From: a virus
Virus record (IMG/VR): IMGVR_UViG_3300032282_005642
Coordinates: 1 to 20,950 of that record
Length of the DNA: 20,950 bases
Strand: one strand, 5' to 3'
Under the pieces are notes generated by a model, which was not told where the DNA came from, did no database searches, and saw only the letters and a list, made by a program, of their open reading frames with translations. Shown here one piece after another: positions 1 through 19,600 of this stretch. The translations under genes were made by a program, and so were the position numbers. Position 1 is the stretch's first letter, and each line of letters opens with the position of its first letter.

Positions 1-1584
1 CAGGAGGACCAGACCGACTCCGAGATGAAGGGCGCCCTCTTCCTGCTGGCGCTTCGCATCCGCGCACTGGTGCTGACGCTGCCCGAAGGCGGCATCGCCC
101 GCCAAATCGACTACCCCCGCCTGCAGCCGCGCATTATCAACGAGGTCCAAGCCACCTCCAACCGCATCTTTGCGATCCTCCGCACCCGCCTTGAGGGCAT
201 CGAGCGCCTGAGCCTGACTGCCGCCGGCGAGTTGTTTGATGCCGTCCCCCCACAGGGCCGCCCGGTTTCCGTGCTGCTGGAGCAAACCCGTGTGGGCGTC
301 CAAAGCCTGCTGACGCTATTCCGCTACAACGAGCGCCTCGGCAGCTCGGACTTTACGGCCCAGCTAATCCGCCTCCTCGACAAAAGCCTCCAAGTCGAAT
401 TCATCAAGGGCACTCCAACCGATGAGGTAGCGGACAAGGTGGTGGAGGTCCGCATCCGCCGGGGCGAGGAAATCCCCGTTGTGAACAAGGGCAGTGTGGC
501 CAACGGCTGGCGCTTCCGCACCAAGGCGATTGTGGCCGCGGCCTACTGGCAGATCGCATTTAACGCCCAACAGCGCACCGCGGTTGAGGCCGTGCGCGTA
601 ATCGAGGAATGGGAGTGGAGCGCTGTACTGGATCCGAAGACGTGCCCAATCTGCCGCCCGCTGGACGGCGAGCGATCCCCGTACCCAGCGGGATTCCCCC
701 AAGGCCCACCCCCGCTTCATCCAAATTGCGTTTTAGGTGACACGCAAATAACGACCGGTACTTTGATCGCGGCGACTCGCGCCATGTACAGCGGCGACAT
801 CGTGACCATACGAACGGAGAGCGGGCGCAAACTCTCCGTCACAGCGCAGCACCCAATGCTGACCCGCACCGGCTGGGTCCGCGCTTGCGATTTGAGCAAT
901 GGCTTGGATCTGTTTAGCCACCGCAGTGGGGCACCAACCCCTATTGATCTGCCAGACCTCGATGACGCACCAGCCACGGCCGAGCAAATATTCCAAGCGT
1001 TTAGGTCGTCTAGCAGCGTGACGACCACATGCGTGCCAGCCGCCCCCATGCAATTCCACGGCGACGGAGCTTCCGCCCAAGGCAATGTCGAGATTGTATG
1101 GACCGACCGGATACTCAAAGAAACTGTGAATGCCGATTACATCCAACTGCTCTCCAAGTTCCAAAGCGTAGTTACTGATTCCGAGCTGGCGCTCCCATCG
1201 GGTTTGAGCACGACGGATGCGTTCTTCCTCGGAATGAACGCGGCCTCTAGCGGCCTTGTGTGCTTGGTGGAGCAATGCCTTGCGCTCCTCCGAGGTGAGC
1301 TGGGACTGACGGAGCAGCATCGCCTCGCTGCGATTGCGCTGAGTAATCCCACGCTCTCGCAACCTTGCTACGACAACGTTCCTGGCGCAGCCAAATACCT
1401 CGGCCAAGTGCTTGACGCTTGCCCCGGCTTCGTAACGACGGACAAGATCATCGACATTAAGGTTGAGCCTGCGGGACATCCACTGCCGGTGTACGACTTC
1501 ACTACCCTATCAGGCATGTACACCGCAGAAACCCAACTAACCCATAATTGCCGGTGCGTTCTAATCCCGATCTACGGCGATTAG
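1..1584 (+). CDS. Mu gpF-like minor head protein precursor, intein-containing, 5' partial
   Basis: Minor head or head-morphogenesis protein of the phage Mu gpF family, which in known phages associates with the portal during procapsid assembly. The frame is open to base 1, so the true start lies upstream; the first ATG in view is at 25. Residue numbers count from that ATG. The host part carries the family's C-terminal signature: CPIC (residues 207-210), a DGE, a proline-rich stretch, then HPN before the intein and CRC just after it. Joined by splicing this gives the usual HPNCRC, followed by only nine more residues to the stop. A 274-residue intein (residues 235-508) splits the signature between N and C. 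Without it the visible host protein is about 245 residues. The upstream neighbour would be expected to be the portal gene. Family call is from motif recognition, not from a search. Confidence 0.85.
   Translation, partial: QEDQTDSEMKGALFLLALRIRALVLTLPEGGIARQIDYPRLQPRIINEVQATSNRIFAILRTRLEGIERLSLTAAGELFDAVPPQGRPVSVLLEQTRVGVQSLLTLFRYNERLGSSDFTAQLIRLLDKSLQVEFIKGTPTDEVADKVVEVRIRRGEEIPVVNKGSVANGWRFRTKAIVAAAYWQIAFNAQQRTAVEAVRVIEEWEWSAVLDPKTCPICRPLDGERSPYPAGFPQGPPPLHPNCVLGDTQITTGTLIAATRAMYSGDIVTIRTESGRKLSVTAQHPMLTRTGWVRACDLSNGLDLFSHRSGAPTPIDLPDLDDAPATAEQIFQAFRSSSSVTTTCVPAAPMQFHGDGASAQGNVEIVWTDRILKETVNADYIQLLSKFQSVVTDSELALPSGLSTTDAFFLGMNAASSGLVCLVEQCLALLRGELGLTEQHRLAAIALSNPTLSQPCYDNVPGAAKYLGQVLDACPGFVTTDKIIDIKVEPAGHPLPVYDFTTLSGMYTAETQLTHNCRCVLIPIYGD
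727..1548 (+). other. Intein (protein intron), class 1 splice motifs, 274 residues
   Basis: In-frame protein-splicing element. Block A starts with Cys1 (CVLGDTQI). Block B is SVTAQHPMLT, with the TxxH residues at intein positions 39-42. Block F is the VYDFTT...GMYTA region around residues 254-266. Block G ends in THN with terminal Asn274, and the first extein residue is Cys. This is a complete set of splice residues, so the element is probably active. Between blocks B and F lie about 200 residues with no visible in-frame LAGLIDADG or HNH nuclease. An FHGDG motif sits at intein residues 110-114; I recall this motif from other phage and cyanobacterial inteins, but did not search. The insertion point is the most conserved part of the host gene, as is usual for homing elements. 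The opposite strand carries a nuclease gene over residues 3-251. Confidence 0.93.
733..1479 (-). CDS. Antisense Vsr/DUF559-like homing endonuclease nested in the intein
   Basis: Predicted 248-residue DNA endonuclease on the strand opposite the intein. Residues about 10-45 form a helix-turn-helix (DLVRRYEAGASVKHLAEVFG...VVVARLRERGI) followed by a basic NRSEAM segment, as in recombinase-type DNA-binding domains. Residues 126-176 form a PD-(D/E)xK/Vsr-like core: GPYNLDIAL with Asp131, VAVELHGGGWH with Glu142 and His149, then GRH, an R/K-rich helix and LLGRGWCVIEVW, the usual last strand. HTH plus Vsr-like core suits a homing enzyme acting on the intein-free head gene. The stop codon TAA is the complement of the intein's third codon (TTA, 733-735). 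ATG at 1477-1479 is the only good start before an upstream stop at 1507-1509; no clear ribosome site or promoter is visible. Codons are exactly aligned with those of the intein. Role in homing is inferred from domains and location. Confidence 0.82.
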   Translation of the reverse strand: MSRRLNLNVDDLVRRYEAGASVKHLAEVFGCARNVVVARLRERGITQRNRSEAMLLRQSQLTSEERKALLHQAHKAARGRVHSEEERIRRAQTRWERQLGISNYALELGEQLDVIGIHSFFEYPVGPYNLDIALGGSSVAVELHGGGWHACGRHAARRPKRLEYLLGRGWCVIEVWQINRGWCPTAVAKQIQAIAQIASADPAGAGQHWVLRCDGEFAPALRSYGHDVAAVHGASRRDQSTGRYLRVT

Positions 1585-1612
1585 AGTGATACAAAATCCC
1601 TGAGAATGCCCT

Positions 1613-1786
1613 ATGGCTTTATGGATTCCCGGCCCCTGGACCTCCCGCAAACGCCGCCCCAAAACCACTGATGCACCCAGCAATAGCCCAGCTCCAGCTA
1701 CAAAAACTGCTGCAACAAAAAGCCGCAGATCCAAGCCCAAACCCCCAGAGGGACCAACAGATCTTGGAACTGAAGCAACTACTTAA
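1613..1786 (+). CDS. Small basic Pro/Lys-rich protein, 57 residues
   Basis: A short open frame begins ATG GCT TTA TGG (MALWIPGPW) and continues as a low-complexity, strongly basic stretch rich in Lys, Arg, Pro, Ala and Thr, ending in an acidic tail (GTEATT) and TAA. It fills most of the gap between the minor head gene and the scaffold gene on the same strand. No family is recognised. The aromatic start followed by a disordered basic region would suit a small structural or DNA-associated virion protein, but that is a guess. There is no strong ribosome site; GAGA lies shortly before the ATG. It could be non-coding, although the frame starts close after the previous stop and uses codons like its neighbours. 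Confidence 0.5.
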   Translation: MALWIPGPWTSRKRRPKTTDAPSNSPAPATKTAATKSRRSKPKPPEGPTDLGTEATT

Positions 1787-1808
1787 GGTCCCCTCAAGTA
1801 CTACTAAA

Positions 1809-1838
1809 GGGGTAACCTAGGAGGGTACAAGTTACCCC
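1809..1838 (+). promoter_or_regulatory. Hairpin with ribosome-binding site in its loop before the scaffold gene
   Basis: GGGGTAAC (1809-1816) pairs perfectly with GTTACCCC (1831-1838), leaving a 14-base loop. The loop holds AGGAGG (1819-1824), the only near-perfect Shine-Dalgarno sequence I noticed before a gene here. The AGGAGG ends 21 bases before ATG 1846, too far for normal initiation unless the hairpin shortens the distance. The left arm overlaps one copy of the GGNAACCTAG motif. Confidence 0.55.
1811..1820 (+). promoter_or_regulatory. GGNAACCTAG start-associated motif, copy A
   Basis: GGTAACCTAG, ending 25 bases before the scaffold start at 1846. One of nine copies of a motif seen only before gene starts in this window. 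Confidence 0.55.
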
Positions 1839-1845
1839 CGACCTC

Positions 1846-2574
1846 ATGTCCGAGCAGGTCATGGGTGCTCCTTCTGTGGAGGAGCAAGTTGAGCCGGTGG
1901 CTCAGCAACCCGCCCCCCAGTCCACTGATGATGCTTCTGCCCTTCGCAAGAAGCTGGAGCTTGTCCAACAGGACAACCTGGCCAAAGGCGAAGCAAACCG
2001 CAAGCTCAACGAGCGTGTGGGCGAGGCAGAAAAACTCATCCGGGACTTAGAGACCCGCCTCAAGACCACCCATCAGCAGCAACGCGCCGACCAAGGCGAG
2101 TTCAAAACGCTGTGGGAGGAAGCCAATGCCGACAATGCCCGCCTGCAGCAACGCATCGTCGAGCTTGAAGCCGCGCTTCAGGCCAAAGACAGTGAAGCAG
2201 CGCAGGAACGCCTCCGAGCCACGGCCCTTCAACAAATCAGCCAAGCCAACGCGCTTGCCCCCGAGCAACTGCTCGGACTGTTGAAACCGCAACTCCGAGA
2301 CAACAACGGCGTCCCCGTCGTCATCGTCAACGGCATCGAGCAACCTCTCGCCGCCCACCTGGCCAACTTGAAAAATTCCGGCTCCGGCTGGGACCATCAT
2401 TTTGCAGCCACTGGTGCCCGCGGCATGGGCAGTACCCCCAGCAGCAACGTCCCCCCTGGAGTTGTGAACCCCTACAAAAAGGGCGACACTTTTAACTTCA
2501 CGGAGCAGTTGCGCCTTGAGGTCGAAAACCCTGAGCTGGCACGCCTCCTCAAGAGCGAAGCCACTCGCGGGTAA
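1846..2574 (+). CDS. Scaffold-like coiled-coil protein
   Basis: A 242-residue acidic protein placed just before the major capsid gene, where tailed phages normally encode the scaffold that guides procapsid assembly. Residues about 1-30 are Pro/Gln/Glu-rich and disordered. Residues about 32-125 form a long charged heptad-type coiled coil (LRKKLELVQQDN...LEAALQAKDSE). Then follows a segment with QISQANALAPEQLLGLLKPQL and a VPVVIVNG turn, and a C-terminal tail ending EVENPELARLLKSEATRG, which could bind the capsid. This layout resembles gp20-type phage scaffold or minor structural proteins. ATG 1846 is the only standard start codon I see in frame; a hairpin with an embedded Shine-Dalgarno lies upstream. 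Function is inferred from layout and position, with no catalytic motif. Confidence 0.75.
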   Translation: MSEQVMGAPSVEEQVEPVAQQPAPQSTDDASALRKKLELVQQDNLAKGEANRKLNERVGEAEKLIRDLETRLKTTHQQQRADQGEFKTLWEEANADNARLQQRIVELEAALQAKDSEAAQERLRATALQQISQANALAPEQLLGLLKPQLRDNNGVPVVIVNGIEQPLAAHLANLKNSGSGWDHHFAATGARGMGSTPSSNVPPGVVNPYKKGDTFNFTEQLRLEVENPELARLLKSEATRG

Positions 2575-2579
2575 CCACC

Positions 2580-2589
2580 GGCAACCCCG
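2580..2589 (+). promoter_or_regulatory. GGNAACCTAG-like motif, copy B
   Basis: GGCAACCCCG, 13 bases before the major capsid start at 2603; a second partial copy, GGTAACCACC, lies just upstream over the scaffold stop codon. It is a weaker match than copies A, C, E and I. Confidence 0.35.
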
Positions 2590-2602
2590 CTAATCCTGAA
2601 TC

Positions 2603-3646
2603 ATGGCCGCACCTTTTCAAAACTATTCGGACGGGACGTTCCTGACCGATCTGGTCAAGCGCCCCGAATTCCTCACCTATCTGAGTGAGGAAATCGTGGA
2701 GCGTTCTGCCTTTGTGCAGAGCGGTGTCCTGACCCGCAACGCTGCCCTGGACTGCCGCGCTGGCGGCACCCGTGTGCGCGTGCCTTACTTCCAGCCGATC
2801 AACCCCACCGAGGAGATCATCCAGTCAAACGCCACCTGGGGCGAAAGCACCGAGGGCTACCTGACTCCTAAGGCCATCACTGCTTCCGAGCAAGTGATGA
2901 CCATCCTGCACCGTGGCTTCGCCTATGCGGTGGACGACCTGTCCAAGCTGGGCACTGGTGCTGACCCGATGGCTGCCATCCGTGGCTATCTGGCTGCCAG
3001 CATCAACAAACTGCGCACTGCCACGCTGATTGCCCAACTGACCGGCATCTTCGGCGACGCCCTGGCCAACAACAGCCTGGACATCACCGGCGACGCCGAG
3101 AAGGACATCAGCGCCATGGCTGTGATTGCTGCCAAGGCCAAGCTGGGCGAGCGCGGCGAATCGCTGTCTGCGATTGCACTGCACCCGAACCAGTACTACT
3201 ACCTGCAGCAAATCGGGATGCTGACCTTCACCGGCGGCAACGTGCAGTCGGGCGACCCCATCACCTGGGGCGCAGGCGGCACCAACGTGACCAGCGCTGG
3301 CGTGGCGAACTTCGCCGGCCTCCGCGTGATCGTTGACTCCCAGCTGCCCCACAGCGGTGGCGTGTACACCTCTTACCTCTTCGGCCCTGGTGCCGTGAGC
3401 GAGGGTGTGCAGCAGGAACTGCGCATCGAATCCGAGCGCAACATCCTGTCGAAGCAGGACGTGATGGCCGTGGACTACCACTACGGTATGCACGTCAACG
3501 GTGTCACCTGGAACGACGCTGCGGACAACCCGACCAACAGCGACATGGAGGACGACACCAACTGGACCCTCAAGTACAACGCGGACCTGATCCCCGTCGT
3601 GCAACTGAAGTCCGGCACCCCCCTCGATCCCATCCCCGCTCCCTGA
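2603..3646 (+). CDS. Major capsid protein
   Basis: A 347-residue protein directly after the scaffold-like gene, the usual place for the major capsid protein that builds the icosahedral shell. The N-terminus (MAAPFQNYSDGTFLTDLVKR) and the following ERSAFVQSGVLTRNAALD...GGTRVRVPYF pattern match a class of HK97-fold capsid proteins. Later parts include the long-helix region (AIRGYLAASINKLRTATLIAQL), the SAIALHPNQYYYLQQIGML strand, and a GLRVIVDSQLP turn that is common in such capsids. There is no sign of a fused protease. Codon use is strongly GC-ending and even, fitting high expression. No Shine-Dalgarno is visible. A strong hairpin terminator follows, which would separate capsid transcription from downstream genes. 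The fold is inferred from pattern recognition. Confidence 0.88.
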   Translation: MAAPFQNYSDGTFLTDLVKRPEFLTYLSEEIVERSAFVQSGVLTRNAALDCRAGGTRVRVPYFQPINPTEEIIQSNATWGESTEGYLTPKAITASEQVMTILHRGFAYAVDDLSKLGTGADPMAAIRGYLAASINKLRTATLIAQLTGIFGDALANNSLDITGDAEKDISAMAVIAAKAKLGERGESLSAIALHPNQYYYLQQIGMLTFTGGNVQSGDPITWGAGGTNVTSAGVANFAGLRVIVDSQLPHSGGVYTSYLFGPGAVSEGVQQELRIESERNILSKQDVMAVDYHYGMHVNGVTWNDAADNPTNSDMEDDTNWTLKYNADLIPVVQLKSGTPLDPIPAP

Positions 3647-4319: not shown

Positions 4320-4348
4320 CCCATGTACCTTATTGTGTGGTACATGGG
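4320..4348 (+). promoter_or_regulatory. Perfect 10-bp inverted repeat over the sigma-gene start codons
   Basis: CCCATGTACC (4320-4329) and GGTACATGGG (4339-4348) are exact inverse complements separated by 9 bases. The left arm contains ATG 4323 and the right arm contains ATG 4344, both in frame with the sigma-like gene. As DNA it could be an operator for a dimer; as RNA it would be a hairpin hiding both start codons. Confidence 0.65.
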
Positions 4349-4865
4349 AAAGACCGGCCGCCCCAAAACCGGATATTTAGCGACGCCACTTAGCGGTGAC
4401 GAACAACGCCGCGTGGGACGTTTATACCGCGAGCACCAGGGCATCATCAAACTGATGGGCCGCAAGATGTGCCGCAAGTATCCCTACGTCGCCTTCGACG
4501 ACTTATTCAGCTGCATCGACATCGCCTTCATCAAAACCTGCCGCGCCTGGGACCCCAAGAAAGGCACATTCTCCACACTGCTGACTGTCTTTTCCGAAGG
4601 AGAAATCCGCCACTTCATCCGCGACCACAACTGGCTGGTGAAGGCCCCCGGCACTGTCCGCACGCTGGGGCAACGCGCCCGCCACATGCTGAACCGCGGC
4701 GAACGCATGGAAGACGTACTGGAGCACCTTGGCGTCAGCGAGAAAAAATTGAAAGAAGCCCTGATGGCCACCTGTCCAACAGACCATGAGATCAAGGGCT
4801 TTGAATTACATGTGTGCCCCCGCCCCACACCATGGGATGTGCTGGAGCGCGAAGAATGTGCATAG
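4323..4865 (+). CDS. Sigma-70-like factor, regions 2 and 3 only
   Basis: A 180-residue RNA polymerase sigma-like protein (173 residues if ATG 4344 is used). Residues 54-108 match sigma region 2: YPYVAFDDLFSCIDIAFIK, then CRAWDPKKGTFSTLL, then SEGEIRHFIRDHNWLVKAP. This is the layout of core-binding and -10-recognition helices in group 3 sigma factors of the SigB/SigF kind. Residues about 112-147 (VRTLGQRARHML...VLEHLGVSEKKLKEAL) look like region 3. No region 4, the -35-binding domain, follows, so it may read extended -10 promoters or need a partner. The C-terminus has three Cys residues (151, 165, 179). It sits between connector and tail-tube genes, which would suit a late-gene sigma that feeds back on the structural operon. 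Target promoters are unknown; GGNAACCTAG copies are candidates. Confidence 0.8.
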   Translation: MYLIVWYMGKTGRPKTGYLATPLSGDEQRRVGRLYREHQGIIKLMGRKMCRKYPYVAFDDLFSCIDIAFIKTCRAWDPKKGTFSTLLTVFSEGEIRHFIRDHNWLVKAPGTVRTLGQRARHMLNRGERMEDVLEHLGVSEKKLKEALMATCPTDHEIKGFELHVCPRPTPWDVLEREECA

Positions 4866-5414: not shown

Positions 5415-5444
5415 AAGCCCCGGCCTAACCAGCTGGGGCTTTTT
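5415..5444 (+). terminator. Rho-independent terminator after the major tail gene
   Basis: AAGCCCC (5415-5421) pairs with GGGGCTT (5435-5441), and inner pairs extend the stem; the T run covers 5440-5444. It lies between convergent genes and touches the stop codon of the minus-strand gene at 5443. In the minus direction the T run is weak, so it mainly serves the plus strand. Confidence 0.8.
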
Positions 5445-5934
5445 ACTGCCCGCTCGCTTTAGCGTTCCACCGCGCCACCAAAAACGGCATAAACGGCTTC
5501 GCCTCCAGTGTCGAGGTCAGCCAATTGCGCTTCACCTGCTCGGGCGTTGCCTTGCGCCCCTCCGGATTTATGTAGGGGTCGTACTTACCCAGCAGGATGT
5601 TTTTGGCGTATGGGGCAGTCCACGTAATCGACAATGCCACACCTTTCGGACTATTGCCAACAACCGGCGGCTGTTGAGAGTTCAGCAGTTTGCCTGTATC
5701 CACAATGTCCCGCTTCCCTTCTGGAATCAGGATTCCACCGCGCTCTGGGGTACCCCCCATCAGCAAACTTTTGAAGCGCAGCGTTGGAGCAGGCCAATCC
5801 CACTTCCGCGCCGTGATCTCCTCCCGCGCCTGCTCTGCCAGCTGGGGCCCAAACTCCTCCAGCACCTTGCCCGCAGCGGCCAGCAGCTTGTCCGCGTTCC
5901 ACTCCTTAAAGGTGACCCTGATGCGGGTAGCCAT
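5443..5934 (-). CDS. HK97 gp10-like tail completion protein
   Basis: A 163-residue minus-strand protein with the layout of the HK97 gp10 family, which in siphoviruses caps the tail tube or joins it to the head. An N-terminal amphipathic helical part (NADKLLAAAGKVLEEFGPQLAEQAREEI) is followed by the family's VDTGKLLNS motif (residues 78-86), a beta segment ending in WTAPYAKNILLG (residues 105-116), and the closing KPFMPFLVARW (146-156), equivalent to the usual RPF-P box. Its start overlaps the stop of the upstream minus-strand gene by one base (TGATG), so the two are translationally coupled. It is unusual for this family to be encoded against the direction of the structural operon. Confidence 0.72.
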   Translation of the reverse strand: MATRIRVTFKEWNADKLLAAAGKVLEEFGPQLAEQAREEITARKWDWPAPTLRFKSLLMGGTPERGGILIPEGKRDIVDTGKLLNSQQPPVVGNSPKGVALSITWTAPYAKNILLGKYDPYINPEGRKATPEQVKRNWLTSTLEAKPFMPFLVARWNAKASGQ

Positions 5935-6329
5935 CAGTCCTGCTTCCGCGCCACCAGCTTGATCGACTCCCCAAGCGTGCTATTGAGGATGGTGCCAATC
6001 AAGCCGGTCTTACCGTAAGGCGTCCTCAACGACAGCACCTCAAACGGCACGGGGCTCTCCCCGGCAAACGTAAGCGTCCCAGTGCTGAGCACCCCAATGG
6101 CTGGATCAAAAGCCGTGGGTGACACGGCGTACCCCTCATAGATGGTGGTGGTCTGGTTCACACCGGGATAAACCACCTCATTGACGGTGGTGGCTTTGAG
6201 GAAAAGGGTGACGGTGACATCCTTATCAGCGGGCAGGACGTTGCCGGTGGCTGGATCGGTGTAGACCCCTGTGGTGGCGACTTTGAAGACAGCCGTGGCA
6301 TTTGCCACCGCAGATAGGGCCGAGGCCAT
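5934..6329 (-). CDS. Unrecognised minus-strand virion-type protein, possible head-tail adaptor
   Basis: A 131-residue protein translated with the gp10-like gene through a one-base stop/start overlap. It is beta-rich with a Thr/Val-rich composition: VFKVATTGVYTDPATGNVLP, then VTVTLFLKATTVNEVVYPGVNQTTTIYEGY, and a C-terminal GTILNSTLGESIKLVARKQD. No family is recognised. The genes next to gp10 homologues in other phages often encode a head-tail stopper or adaptor, so that role is possible. ATG 6329 is preferred over the longer TTG at 6365, because a GGAAACCTTG motif copy lies 18 bases upstream, and the extra 12 residues look like leader sequence. Confidence 0.55.
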   Translation of the reverse strand: MASALSAVANATAVFKVATTGVYTDPATGNVLPADKDVTVTLFLKATTVNEVVYPGVNQTTTIYEGYAVSPTAFDPAIGVLSTGTLTFAGESPVPFEVLSLRTPYGKTGLIGTILNSTLGESIKLVARKQD

Positions 6330-6347
6330 TGGCTGGTGCTCTTTACC

Positions 6348-6357
6348 CAAGGTTTCC
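6348..6357 (-). promoter_or_regulatory. GGNAACCTAG start-associated motif, copy F (minus strand)
   Basis: GGAAACCTTG on the minus strand, exactly 18 bases before ATG 6329, the same spacing as copies C and H. Its orientation follows the gene, showing strand specificity. Confidence 0.5.
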
Positions 6358-6360
6358 GCC

Positions 6361-6370
6361 GGCAACCTCG
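6361..6370 (+). promoter_or_regulatory. GGNAACCTAG start-associated motif, copy G
   Basis: GGCAACCTCG followed by GTATAGG ending 14 bases before GTG 6393, matching copy E. It lies back to back with copy F in the 63-base gap between divergent genes. Confidence 0.55.
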
Positions 6371-6392: not shown

Positions 6393-8927
6393 GTGGCAGA
6401 CCTCGGCACAGCCGTATTAACAATCGAGGTCGATCAAAAAGGCTTTGAAGCCAGCCTCGCGCAAGCAAAACAAACAATTCAACGCGAATTAGGCGGCACA
6501 ATCCAGACCGCCACGCAGCGTGGAGCACGAGGCAACCAAGGCGGAAATCGCGGTCGTGATGCCGAGCTTCGGGCCGCCTCCCAACTGCTGCGTCTGCGCA
6601 ACAGCATCAACATCCTTGAAGCCAACGGCGTAAACGTCTCCAAGCTTCGCACCCGCTTATCTGACCTTGAAACCCTAGCCGCCGACAAAAAATACAAAGC
6701 CCTCAAGCAAGAAGGCGAAGCACTCCGCCAAGTCGTATCACAAGAACAAAACCGTTTAAAAGTAAGCAATATAAATAAACGCAATGCTGAAGCACAGGTA
6801 AAACTTAGCGAAAAACAGAGCGCCGCTTCGGTGGCGCTTAATAAACAAAGAGATGCTGCATTTAGAAAAGGTGTTGCACAAGCGAAAAAAGATGCACAGT
6901 TTGCTGCTTCGTACGGTCCGCAATTACCAAAAACACCTAGCGGCAGTACCAGATCTGCCGAGGCTGCAGAACGAGCAGCCTTACGTGAAGGTAGACGCAT
7001 TGGACGCCTAAACGTAAGCCCTATTGGAGGTGGTGTTGCTTTCCCTGGTTCCCCAAAAGCCCTTGAAGCCGCTGCAGCAGCAGAAAGAAAACGCAATAAA
7101 GAATTAGATATAACTGCAGCCAAATTACAAAAAACAGCAGCCAGCGAACGAAAAGCCGCCTCACAGCGCCGCCGCGACATCATTTCAAACGTCGCCATCG
7201 GCGCCGGTTTCCCGCTGTTGTTCGGCCAAGGCTTTGGAGCTGCTGCAGGTGGCGCCCTTGGCGGCGGCATTGGTGGAGCACTTGGCGGCACAGCTGGCTT
7301 TGCGGGCTCCATTGTCGGCACCGCCCTCGGCCAAGCTTTTGATCAAGCCCTCCAAAAAGCGCAAGCGCTGGCGCAAGGACTTGACGACCCAATCAAAAAC
7401 TTTGATGCTCTACGCCAAGCAGCATTGCTATCTAGCAAAGCGGTGGAGCGCAATGCGGAAGCGTTGATTGCGGCTGGCCGAGAAGAGGAAGCCGCCGCAC
7501 TGATCCGCGCCGATCTCAACCGTACATTCGGCTCACCCGAAGCCGCCGCTGAATTCACAGCGGCTACCGACGAACTCAATCGCGCCTGGAGCCAAGCCAC
7601 AGTTTCGCTGACCGCATTTGTAGCCGGCCCGCTGGCACAGTTTTTGCGCGGTGTGTCTATCTTTTTGGGTGGCGGCCCCGCGGCAAGTGCAAAAGCAGAC
7701 GTTGCACGCGCTAGGCAGATTGCAGCCAGCAGCCCCGAAAAGCAAGCCCAGCTGGAGCGCTTGGTACGTCAACGTGGCGGCCGCCTAAACGAAGAGGGCA
7801 ACATCGCCGGCGCAGCATCCGTACCTATTTTCCGCGAGTACCTGAAACTCAACGGCGAGTTGACCGCTGAGCAGAAACAACAAAAGGCACTTACGGATGC
7901 ATTGAGCGAAGGTGCAGCCCGCACCGCAGAGGCAAACCGCCTGAACCTTGCAATTATTGAGGAAAGCGCCCGCGGCAATAAAGAAGCCGCCGCTCAAAAG
8001 GAGCTGGAACTCCTTGCGATTGAGAAAACCCGCCGTATAAACGCACTGCCCCAGACAGCGACTAATGTTGACCGGCAGCGTATTGACCAAGAGTTTGCGG
8101 AAAAACAGGCTAGTGCCGAAGAGAAGCTGACCGCAGCACGACAGGAACGCGCCCGCGCCACATTTGAAGAATTCCAAAAGCAACAACAGATTGAACGCAG
8201 CATCGCCAACACCCTCCAACTGCTTGGAGCACAGCGAGGCGAGTACCGCGACACGCTCCGCACAATCCAGCAAATTTCCACAACGATTAACGAAGCCCGT
8301 CAAAGAGAAGCTGAAATCGGCTTCCAAATCGACCAAGCCCGCCAAGGCGGCCGCGAAGAGGATGCTGCCCGCTTGGTGGAACAACAACGCACTGCCGCCA
8401 CCGAAACCCGCGCCCGCTTGGTTGAAGGCGCACTGGCACTGACCGAAGCCGGCGAAAGCCTACGCGACAACCTCCGCAGTTCTGTGCTGGAACTCGCCAA
8501 ACTCCAAAGCGGCGAAGGCGGCCTCAACAGATTCTTATCGCAGGGGCTTCAACAGCAACGTGCTGAACAGACAAATGCGGCCCTGCAACCATTCCTGCGC
8601 GAAGCACTGGGACGTTTCAGGCAGCTCATCCCTAATGCTGACCTGAGCAACATAAACCAAGTGTTGGGCGGTCGAACAACAGCGGAAGTCAACGCCAACA
8701 TCATCGACTTTATTGAGTCCGTAAACCGCGAATTCCAAGCCACCCAGAATGTGCAGGGCGCCCAAGCCGCTTTGCAGGAAGTCAACAAGGCCCTCGTGGA
8801 TGTCAACAGCCAGCTCCTCGGCGCCACACAGGCACTGGCGCAGAAGGAATGGGTCGTCAACATTGACGTAGTGAACCAGGCCGGTGGGGCCAGCACCGTC
8901 AACACCGTCAACTCCTTGGCCTCATGA
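6393..8927 (+). CDS. Tail tape measure protein
   Basis: An 844-residue protein that fixes tail length and is packed inside the tail tube. It has the hallmarks of the family. The N-terminus is LTIEVDQKGFEASLAQAKQTI; long Ala/Glu/Gln/Arg-rich coiled coils run through most of the length. A Gly/Ala-rich hydrophobic segment lies near residues 262-315 (NVAIGAGFPLLFGQGFGAAA...GGIGGALGG) and may insert in the host membrane. The C-terminus reads VVNQAGGASTVNTVNSLAS. GTG 6393 is chosen over TTG 6381 because its upstream TATAGG spacing equals that of the major tail gene. At about 0.15 nm per residue it would imply a tail near 125 nm. An AT-richer patch (about 6760-7140) interrupts the GC-rich gene. The stop overlaps the next start (ATGA). 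Confidence 0.88.
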   Translation: MADLGTAVLTIEVDQKGFEASLAQAKQTIQRELGGTIQTATQRGARGNQGGNRGRDAELRAASQLLRLRNSINILEANGVNVSKLRTRLSDLETLAADKKYKALKQEGEALRQVVSQEQNRLKVSNINKRNAEAQVKLSEKQSAASVALNKQRDAAFRKGVAQAKKDAQFAASYGPQLPKTPSGSTRSAEAAERAALREGRRIGRLNVSPIGGGVAFPGSPKALEAAAAAERKRNKELDITAAKLQKTAASERKAASQRRRDIISNVAIGAGFPLLFGQGFGAAAGGALGGGIGGALGGTAGFAGSIVGTALGQAFDQALQKAQALAQGLDDPIKNFDALRQAALLSSKAVERNAEALIAAGREEEAAALIRADLNRTFGSPEAAAEFTAATDELNRAWSQATVSLTAFVAGPLAQFLRGVSIFLGGGPAASAKADVARARQIAASSPEKQAQLERLVRQRGGRLNEEGNIAGAASVPIFREYLKLNGELTAEQKQQKALTDALSEGAARTAEANRLNLAIIEESARGNKEAAAQKELELLAIEKTRRINALPQTATNVDRQRIDQEFAEKQASAEEKLTAARQERARATFEEFQKQQQIERSIANTLQLLGAQRGEYRDTLRTIQQISTTINEARQREAEIGFQIDQARQGGREEDAARLVEQQRTAATETRARLVEGALALTEAGESLRDNLRSSVLELAKLQSGEGGLNRFLSQGLQQQRAEQTNAALQPFLREALGRFRQLIPNADLSNINQVLGGRTTAEVNANIIDFIESVNREFQATQNVQGAQAALQEVNKALVDVNSQLLGATQALAQKEWVVNIDVVNQAGGASTVNTVNSLAS

Positions 8928-16850: not shown

Positions 16851-17198
16851 ATGAACCCAGGCACCTACAACATCCGCCCCCAACGCCGCGCTGACTACCA
16901 GCTGAACTTGACGTTCAAGACCAGCGAGGGCGACCCCATCGACCTGAGCAACTACCAAGTGCTGGCGCAGGTCTGGGACAAGTGCCGCACGGAAAAATAC
17001 GGCGACTTCAGCGTTGATACCGCAGACGAGGCCGAGGGCAATGTGGTGCTGACGTTGAGCTACGAGATGACCGAGGTATTGCCAAATGAGGCGTACTACG
17101 ACGTGATGCTGATCAGCGAAATCGATGGTTTGCGGACCTACTACCTAGAAGGAATTGTGCGCCCCAGCCAGGGCTACACAGAGCCTGAGGTGGTCTGA
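16851..17198 (+). CDS. BppU-N-like beta-sandwich tail or baseplate protein
   Basis: A 115-residue protein with the pattern of the N-terminal domain of phage baseplate upper proteins, which attaches fibres to the tail tip. It shows [20 protein letters not shown], then [19 protein letters not shown], a [20 protein letters not shown] segment and a last strand [19 protein letters not shown]. The polar start, the DLSNYxVxAQV strand and the LSxxxTxxLPxxxYxYDV loop are typical of these domains. Its TGA overlaps the ATG of the collagen-like fibre gene (TGATG), which supports a role as fibre adaptor. Confidence 0.6.
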
Positions 17199-19600
17199 TG
17201 TCGGATATTTTCATCAACGTCGAGCCTCAGGAGACTGAGGTTGTCGTTAGCGAGATTCAGGCCAACGTCATTGAACTGTCGGTCCCAGGGCCGGAGGTCA
17301 TTGAGGTCAACACCCCCGGCAAAACGGGTGCAACGGGTGCCACCGGACCCATCGGCATCACCGGGGCAACTGGTGCATCCGGCACCCCCGGCACCAACGG
17401 CCAAACCGGCGCCACCGGCGTAACAGGCCCCACAGGCGTAACGGGCCCCACCGGCCCCCAAGGCAGCACTGGAGCAACGGGGCCTCAAGGCAGCACAGGT
17501 CTCCAAGGCCCTACGGGTCTGACGGGTCAGCGTGGTGCCACCGGCATCCAGGGTTCAACTGGTGTACGCGGCAGCACAGGCCCCACGGGTGTCACGGGCC
17601 CCACTGGTGCCATCGGCCCCCGCGGCTCTACAGGCGCAACAGGTTTTACAGGCCCCCAAGGCACCACCGGCCCCACTGGTGTCGCAGGTCCCACCGGTGC
17701 CACTGGCCCTGAAGGCGAGCTTGGAGCAACTGGTCCTCGGGGTGCCACAGGCGTTGAAGGCCCAACCGGTGCCCGCGGTGAAACCGGCCCTACCGGTTTA
17801 AGCGGCCCCACTGGCCCCCAAGGCATCCAAGGCGCCACGGGCCTTCGCGGTAGCACAGGTGTTACAGGCGCCACCGGCCCGCGTGGTGCAACTGGTGCAT
17901 CGGGCATCATCGGCCAAAGCGGTGCCACCGGCTCCGCCGGCCCCCAAGGCATCACCGGCCCTACAGGTCCTACGGGCCCGCTTGGTGCAACTGGAGCAAC
18001 AGGCCCCGTTGGTGCCAGCGGTCCTCAGGGTATTCCGGGGCTGGGCATCACGTTCAAGGGCTCTGTTGCCAGCATCGGCGACTTACCCATTCCTGCGGAT
18101 CAGGGCGATGCCTACATCGTCCAAGCCGACGACAGCTTTTGGGTTTACGACACTGTTGACGGCTGGGTCAATGGCGGCTCCATCCAAGGCCCCATGGGTG
18201 CCACAGGTCCCATCGGCGAAACCGGCCCGATTGGGCCTACGGGTCCTGAAGGCCCTACAGGTCCAAGCGGGGTTGATGGTATTACAGGTGCCACCGGCCC
18301 TGAAGGCAGCACTGGAGCAACTGGCCCTCTAGGCGAAACGGGACCAACCGGTCTGCCAGGCGCAGTTGGTGCCACAGGAGCCACGGGTCCAGAAGGTATC
18401 GCCGGTGCAACGGGTCCTATTGGTATTACTGGCCCTATCGGCCAAACCGGTGCAACAGGTCCAGCAGGCCCCTCCGGCGCTGGTGCCACAGGTGCTACGG
18501 GCCCTGCTGGTGCTGGCGGTGCCCTCGGCTACTGGGGCAGTTTCTATGACACCACCACACAAAATGCTGCCAGCGCCAACACTGCTTATGCCGTAGCGAT
18601 TGGCAGCTCTGATCCAGCCAGCAATGGCGTCAGCATCACCAGCGGTACCCGCGTCACCTTCGCAAATGCTGGTGTTTACAGCGTCACCTACTCAATCCAG
18701 CTGGTCAACTCAGACACTCAGATCCACGATGCCAACATCTGGCTGCGCAAAAACGACAGTGGTAGTGCCGGCGACGTACCTGATACCGATAGCCGCTTCA
18801 GTGTTCCCAACAAGCATGGCGGCGTAAACGGCAACTTGATTGCCACCGTCAACTACGTGGTGTCCTTGGCAGCCGGCGACTATCTGGAGTTGATCTGGTC
18901 CACTACCAGCACCCAGATTTTCCTCGGCGCCTTCGCTGCTGGAACCGCCCCCACCAGCCCCAGCATCCCCAGCGTGATCATCACCGCCACCCAGGTGATG
19001 TACACCCAACTGGGTCCCAGCGGTGCAACAGGCGCCGTCGGTGCAACAGGCGCCACCGGACCCATTGGCATCACCGGTGCCACCGGCATCCAGGGCCCCG
19101 TAGGCGCTACGGGCCCCATTGGCATTACGGGCGCCACAGGCGCAGTAGGCATAACAGGCGCTACAGGCCCGATTGGCGCCACGGGCGCAACAGGCGTTGC
19201 CGGCTATTCAGTTCTCAGCGGCGCTGGAGCACCAGCCGCAGGAACCGGTGTCAACGGCGATTTCTATATCGACACCACTGCCAATACCATCTACGGCCCT
19301 AAAACAACCGGTGCTTGGGGATCACCCACAAGTCTCGTAGGCCCAACTGGAGCTACGGGCCCGATAGGTATTACAGGAGCCACCGGCCCCCAAGGCACTG
19401 CTGGTGTGACTGGAGCAACCGGACCTCAAGGTGCTACCGGCGTTGGGACTGTATACCCTGCCTCTGAGACCAAACAGGTAATTGCAGAGAACTACACTAT
19501 CAGCACCGGATTTAATGCCATATCAGTTAGCCCCGTAGAAGTGGCGGCAACTTATGCTGTAACAGTACCAGCAGGCGCTGTTTGGCTCATCGCCGTTTAA
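17198..19600 (+). CDS. Collagen-like tail fibre with C1q-like domain
   Basis: An 800-residue fibre protein with long Gly-X-Y repeats that should form a collagen-like triple helix. Layout by residue: 1-40 attachment segment; 41-282 Gly-X-Y repeats dominated by GATG and GPTG; 283-330 a small folded insert ([12 protein letters not shown]...[17 protein letters not shown]); 331-440 more Gly-X-Y; 444-603 a jelly-roll domain resembling C1q/TNF (YWGSFYD...[12 protein letters not shown]...[11 protein letters not shown]); 607-669 and 715-749 further collagen runs separated by a [19 protein letters not shown] insert; 750-800 a beta-rich tip. X and Y positions favour Thr, Ala, Ile and Pro, so stability would not depend on hydroxyproline. 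The folded inserts likely act as trimerisation or receptor-binding heads. Confidence 0.93.
17324..19447 (+). repeat. Gly-X-Y coding repeat tracts
   Basis: Degenerate 9-base units (such as GGTGCAACG and GGCCCCACC) encode Gly-X-Y triplets in four blocks within the fibre gene. Synonymous codons vary strongly between units, which limits recombination between them. The tracts produce many spurious open frames on the minus strand. Confidence 0.85.

Follow-up and report, generated by a model that had tools for sequence, protein, structure and literature searches.

Can the bases of a single gene segment encode a protein-splicing domain on one strand and, on the other, the nuclease that would make this segment mobile? 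The question arises in a viral sequence of 20,950 bases (IMG/VR virus record IMGVR_UViG_3300032282_005642, positions 1-20,950), hereafter called the window, where the plus-strand gene 1-1584 encodes a MuF/gpF-like minor head protein interrupted by an intein at HPN|CRC and where the strand opposite the intein carries a long open reading frame. An earlier note on this DNA had proposed that a nuclease nested antisense in a spliced protein would constitute a compact selfish element. The family, phase and selection analyses presented here support this proposal and give it a wider reach than first thought. We consider it very probable that the locus is a bidirectionally coded mobile intein, with its splicing domain on the plus strand and its homing nuclease on the minus strand of the same bases.

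The virus itself is probably a cyanophage-like tailed phage, because its capsid protein is nearest to that of a marine virus from a single-cell genome (50%) and then to that of cyanophage S-2L (39%). Elsewhere in the window, the gene at 17198-19600 (+) encodes a protein of 800 aa, probably a tail fibre, in which collagen-like GATGPTG repeats extend over long stretches. A protein with a sigma-70 region 2 (4323-4865, plus strand; E 9e-6) is encoded among the head-tail genes and is possibly a phage sigma factor within the structural cluster; such a protein is also found at 1-318 (-) of L005, a related locus from IMG/VR.

Two predicted proteins from the same bases

On the sense strand, the intein presents the complete class-1 motif set, namely C1, T39, H42, H273-N274, with the last Asn codon at 1546-1548, and C+1 (Table 1). 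T39, H42, N274 and C+1 are invariant across 39 relatives. A profile search with the intein matched solved inteins (best 2jmz, E 1.4e-10). The AlphaFold2 model of the sense protein contains two HINT halves, mostly above 85 pLDDT and reaching over 90, that superpose on the Mtu RecA intein with a Z of 12.4 and an rmsd of 1.5 over 106, as expected of a HINT fold. The linker between the halves is modelled at low confidence from about residue 128 on, residues 170-229 falling below 50 pLDDT. Sequence and model thus predict a class-1 HINT intein, which presumably splices itself. The sense frame has no Pfam match to a nuclease domain, a search that is blind to a degenerate domain without detectable similarity. 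The description of this element in the earlier note, as an intein without visible in-frame nuclease in a gpF-like head gene, was accurate.

The antisense frame starts with ATG, contains no internal stop and covers intein codons 3 to 251, codon position 2 facing position 2 of the head gene. Its coordinates, its length of 248 aa and its exact codon alignment had been reported correctly, as a new reading of the frame confirmed. The AlphaFold2 model of its product (pLDDT 88) comprises an N-terminal helical part with a helix-turn-helix (HTH) and a nuclease core. In a Foldseek search of the PDB, the two top matches were the homing endonuclease I-Bth0305I and then E. coli Vsr, with modest E-values (6e-3). 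Sequence profiles agree with this result (3hrl, E 4.6e-9; I-Bth0305I, E 6.5e-5), and VIA-align gave Z values of 11.5 for Vsr, 10.3 for 3hrl and 10.2 for I-Bth0305I. All three approaches assign to the model the Vsr-type fold of EDxHD homing endonucleases and predict that the antisense product is an HTH protein with a Vsr-type nuclease core; the HTH and the Vsr/DUF559-like core recognized in the earlier note were both recovered, the former through weak matches. The note had further singled out Asp131, Glu142 and His149. All three residues lie where it had placed them, and the first two are almost always kept in the 130 nonredundant members of the family (129/130 and 128/130), whereas His149 is kept in only 107/130. 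Among the residues that might belong to an EDxHD set, the family also conserves Arg161 (130/130), retained jointly with D131 and E142 in 128/130 members, and Glu105 (121/130), which is replaced by Ala in the clade of the window. The window nuclease, with this Ala105 and a weak start region, may be less active than its relatives. Most of the nuclease core lies opposite the low-confidence sense linker, and in these models the overlap of two folded regions is limited to the ends.

Table 1. Features of the interrupted head gene and of the frame opposite its intein (window coordinates)
Feature	Position	Strand	Basis
N-extein, MuF/gpF-like minor head protein (5' end cut by record)	1..726	+	Phage_Mu_F E 3e-8; PHROG 15127 head protein E 3e-26
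Class-1 intein (predicted), 274 aa; C1 at 727-729, terminal His-Asn at 1543-1548	727..1548	+	Weak Intein_splicing match; profile; AlphaFold2; structure match
Intein block B, TAQHPMLT	841..864	+	T39 and H42 invariant in 39 relatives
C-extein CRCVLIPIYGD and stop; C+1 at 1549-1551	1549..1584	+	C+1 invariant in 39 relatives
Homing-endonuclease-like gene, 248 aa; ATG 1477-1479, stop 733-735; codon-aligned with intein	733..1479	-	Open reading frame; family and selection tests
Antisense start ATG, complement of sense CAT, intein His251 (block-F His)	1477..1479	-	Sequence; relation common to relatives
Helix-turn-helix, antisense residues 9-42	1354..1455	-	Weak HTH_58, HTH_7 and HTH_23 matches; helices in AlphaFold2 model
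Vsr-type nuclease core (predicted), antisense residues 100-219	823..1182	-	VIA-align; MTES_1575 match
Asp131 codon, predicted catalytic	1087..1089	-	Kept in 129/130 nonredundant members
Glu142 codon, predicted catalytic	1054..1056	-	Kept in 128/130
His149 codon	1033..1035	-	Kept in 107/130
Arg161 codon	997..999	-	Kept in 130/130

Distribution and proposed mobility of the element

A tblastn search with the antisense protein retrieved 132 phage records, a redundant set whose record counts do not equal independent events, and among the matches listed the protein is mostly encoded on the other strand of a gene annotated as MuF or head morphogenesis. Twelve phage loci were taken, from Gordonia, Mycobacterium, Salmonella, Pantoea, Pseudomonas, Cronobacter, Klebsiella and Vibrio phages and from the environmental virus Rctr197k. 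In these and in L005, the antisense frame is open over the match, in the identical phase, and the sense gene is intact (13/13). Scanning IMG/VR with the antisense alignment yielded 348 relatives. Of the viral-contig loci analysed from this antisense-based search, 78/78 have a sense frame that runs open through the region in phase 0 only, and 76/78 have an open antisense frame. A second IMG/VR scan was queried with the sense intein alignment to avoid selection by the antisense frame, and gave at least 570 relatives. The antisense nuclease is present in the aligned phase in all 80 loci of this sense-selected set, which comprises 66 distinct sequences. The HMM matches have E-values of 5e-55 or better, a stop splits the nuclease in a single locus, and a bias from the antisense-protein search can be discarded on this basis. 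Bacterial genomes gave no match to the single protein of locus L011; with an alignment of closer members (A6) as query, 16 loci were obtained from assemblies of Actinobacteria, Chloroflexi, Firmicutes, a cyanobacterium, proteobacteria and others, and the phase is the aligned one in all 16. Overall, an antisense stop occurs in only three loci (78 viral-contig, 12 phage and 16 bacterial loci, and 80 sense-selected ones). The arrangement is common to hundreds of phages and prophages.

Most host genes are MuF-like: Phage_Mu_F is matched by 70 of 105 N-exteins and Phage_min_cap2 by 10; one N-extein corresponds to RtcB and one to a dCMP deaminase, and judging from these host genes the element is not confined to head genes. 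In Rctr197k (L016), gene 616-1968 is annotated as a head morphogenesis protein and its N-extein is a dCMP deaminase (E 4e-8); the annotation probably stems from the intein. A MuF-like gene in a Scytonema MAG (L190) contains two inteins, a short mini-intein followed by one of the antisense-nuclease type.

Several comparisons point to homing. The joined extein queries covered an intein-free site in 75 Gordonia phage records, with up to 97.5% identity (Geodirt for example), and in 19 Salmonella phage records, in both groups alongside intein-bearing relatives. The divergence of inteins and exteins is discordant in both directions: the inteins of L035 and L036 are 100% identical for exteins at 83%, and those of L033 and L034 99% for exteins at 71%. 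Conversely, Gordonia phages Fosterous and Kewpiedoll (L009 and L018) carry at the same site inteins only about 51% identical in DNA within exteins 94% identical, a mismatch best read as independent occupation or replacement at one homing site.

The following mechanism would account for these observations. The plus strand of 727-1548 would encode a splicing domain that excises itself from the minor head protein, and the insertion would be harmless to the phage because the intein removes itself. The minus strand would encode, in the codon-aligned phase, a separate nuclease composed of an HTH and a Vsr/I-Bth0305I-like core. This enzyme presumably targets head genes that lack the intein and cuts them at the conserved HPN|CRC codons, and repair of the break from an intein-bearing copy would copy the element into the cut allele. 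The DNA of the carrier would be protected because the insertion itself disrupts the target.

The antisense gene could alternatively be selected for another purpose than homing, as a DNA-binding or repair nuclease or to regulate either the head gene or superinfecting phages. The HTH and the Vsr-type core also occur in repair and restriction enzymes, Vsr being itself a repair enzyme, and a phage could use a nuclease against its rivals. However, the gene lies inside an intein in every locus examined, and no free-standing close relative outside inteins was found among the loci fetched, in a search that was not exhaustive. Intein-free alleles and discordant divergence are typical of homing, and the closest Foldseek match is a homing endonuclease. 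This explanation is unlikely.

Selection and predicted expression in two frames

Each substitution between related copies was scored as silent or non-silent in each frame, and omega was estimated by counting. Pooled pairs with at least 75% nucleotide identity gave in the overlap an omega of 0.30-0.35 for the antisense frame and of 0.39-0.45 for the sense frame. The exteins of these genes, with the phase kept, gave 0.87-0.98 and 0.20-0.23, respectively; these counting estimates rest on few doubly silent sites, and the extein control behaved as expected. With 12 pairs and a bootstrap over pairs, antisense omega was 0.27 (0.21-0.34) and 0.34 (0.27-0.40) in the overlap as opposed to 0.85 (0.75-1.02) and 1.00 (0.88-1.09) in the exteins, an excess of antisense constraint that bears out the earlier note. 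Sense omega in the overlap was 0.36-0.45 in this analysis. The two frames do not share this constraint evenly: in the middle linker antisense constraint predominates (0.24-0.36, versus 0.49-0.73 for sense), and in the N-terminal part of the intein the sense frame is the more constrained one (sense omega 0.16-0.30). The two genes are a double-coding pair under purifying selection in both frames over shared bases.

These values also bear on the possibility that the insert does not splice and is a hidden endonuclease insertion of the ShiLan type, tolerated as an extra loop of the head protein. Hidden HNH insertions of this type, devoid of splicing motifs, have been published (PMC11855218), and the sense linker is long and predicted at low confidence. 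This alternative is nevertheless highly improbable in view of the sense constraint on the N-terminal part of the intein, the HINT fold and the five splicing residues of the window, the last four of which are invariant in the relatives.

The sense codons that would produce an antisense stop (TTA, CTA and TCA) were observed once for 452 expected in 73 nonredundant loci, a set largely found by the antisense protein, so that this count corroborates the other results but is not independent of the search; 95 such codons were expected in the seven loci with less than 45% GC. That the antisense frame merely results from a GC-rich codon usage combined with the imprint left by a conserved intein, with no protein made, is hardly credible at all: long chance antisense frames do occur in the window (259 aa at 2825-3604 and 280 aa at 6479-7321, both on the minus strand), as the earlier note had rightly cautioned in dismissing length alone as evidence, and no antisense transcript is known, but antisense omega is far below 1 in the overlap and about 1 in the exteins, the antisense frame dominates the constraint in the linker and is open in AT-rich phages as well, the nuclease fold is confident with conserved residues of catalytic type, and identity to the window is higher in the antisense than in the sense protein in 12/12 comparisons. 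A chance frame is rejected on the evolutionary grounds of phase constancy, selection test and extein control, and an imprint of intein conservation by the two-way classing of substitutions and the regional split. The double-coding arrangement is more than chance because constant phase, missing antisense-stop codons, antisense selection and a confident nuclease fold concur; the expectation that the frame would be intact in homologous inteins also held in almost all of them, even when these were chosen by the sense frame.

The start site of the antisense gene is embedded in intein block F. For most relatives, the block-F His codon, read on the opposite strand, is the start codon of the nuclease gene (CAT or CAC giving ATG or GTG); this His is nearly invariant in alignment A2. 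The complement of VY(N/D)L reads GAGGT or GGAGGT, 7 nt upstream of this start. The block-F Leu codon is CTC, needed for the Shine-Dalgarno sequence, in 60/78 cases for 20.6 expected (P 6e-24), and the His codon is CAT, needed for an antisense ATG, in 41/51 for 18.7 expected. Block F (GHVYNL) would in most relatives double as the translation start of the nuclease, its His codon as ATG or GTG and its VY(N/D)L as the (G)GAGGT ribosome-binding site. The antisense gene of the window also starts at the His codon; a three-codon insert parts this codon from VYDF and no good Shine-Dalgarno sequence remains for this start.

We infer that the antisense gene is expressed. No antisense sigma-70 promoter was found within window positions 1400-2700, which is not evidence either way. 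In Salmonella, Pantoea and Klebsiella phages, the adjoining genes lie on the antisense strand, and read-through from them could supply the nuclease message. Separately, two adjacent long minus-strand frames of the window (5443-5934 and 5934-6365), in an otherwise plus-strand structural region, resemble head-tail or tail proteins. Neither has a Pfam match, and they may represent minus-strand coding downstream of the head gene.

Relation to known elements and significance

Mobile inteins such as the Mtu RecA intein PI-MtuI and PI-PfuI carry an in-frame homing endonuclease, mostly of the LAGLIDADG and in some cases of the HNH type. The present element shares with them a HINT domain at a conserved host site, an endonuclease on the same DNA segment and intein-free alleles, but its nuclease is a separate protein of the Vsr type encoded on the opposite strand in the aligned phase. 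The predicted catalytic core is by fold and profile that of I-Bth0305I and the Vsr-like (EDxHD) homing endonucleases. I-Bth0305I was deposited as a mobile intron protein, whereas the gene described here is antisense inside an intein-coding sequence and has its own N-terminal HTH. Fractured genes, reportedly described by Dassa et al. in 2009, are said to consist of inteins split in two, the halves being separated by a free-standing endonuclease gene. They likewise bring together an intein and a free-standing Vsr-like endonuclease at one phage locus; there no bases are shared, while here a contiguous intein shares its bases with the nuclease.

The ShiLan domain is also a selfish insert with one reading in the host frame and an endonuclease in another (PMC11855218). 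Its hidden endonuclease is of the HNH type, in another frame of the same strand, with no splicing domain in the host frame and far fewer hosts; the present element uses the opposite strand, a Vsr-type enzyme and a HINT domain. The homing endonuclease gene of I-DsqI, expressed and active, is antisense to its host gene as well, but it is embedded in a nuclear group I intron. As this RNA intron encodes no protein on its sense strand, no double coding results (PMC9548176).

In our judgement, the element probably represents a class of phage inteins that is widespread and undescribed. In this class, the entire nuclease gene would, base for base, also encode the splicing protein, and block F would provide a ribosome-binding site and a start codon. 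A survey of actinophage inteins posted on bioRxiv by Gosselin et al. in 2025 reportedly exists, which may cover the Gordonia and Mycobacterium MuF inteins and may already report the arrangement. Text searches of the accessible literature found no published antisense nuclease in an intein, and the chance that the arrangement has already been described is perhaps a quarter.

If this interpretation is true, inteins would have a third route to carry a homing enzyme, besides an in-frame domain and a separate neighbouring gene, and the arrangement would explain why many MuF head genes seem to contain an endonuclease-free intein. The locus would illustrate long antisense double coding very clearly, with two predicted folded proteins from about 750 bases, one phase across many phages and bacterial phyla, and selection measurable in both frames with the extein as internal control in each gene. 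Intein-plus and intein-minus Gordonia phages in culture would offer a testable system for antisense expression in phages and for the origin of overlapping genes. The lock between the two reading frames would hinder deletion or drift from removing the nuclease while leaving a working mini-intein, and could account for the nuclease being intact in nearly all copies.
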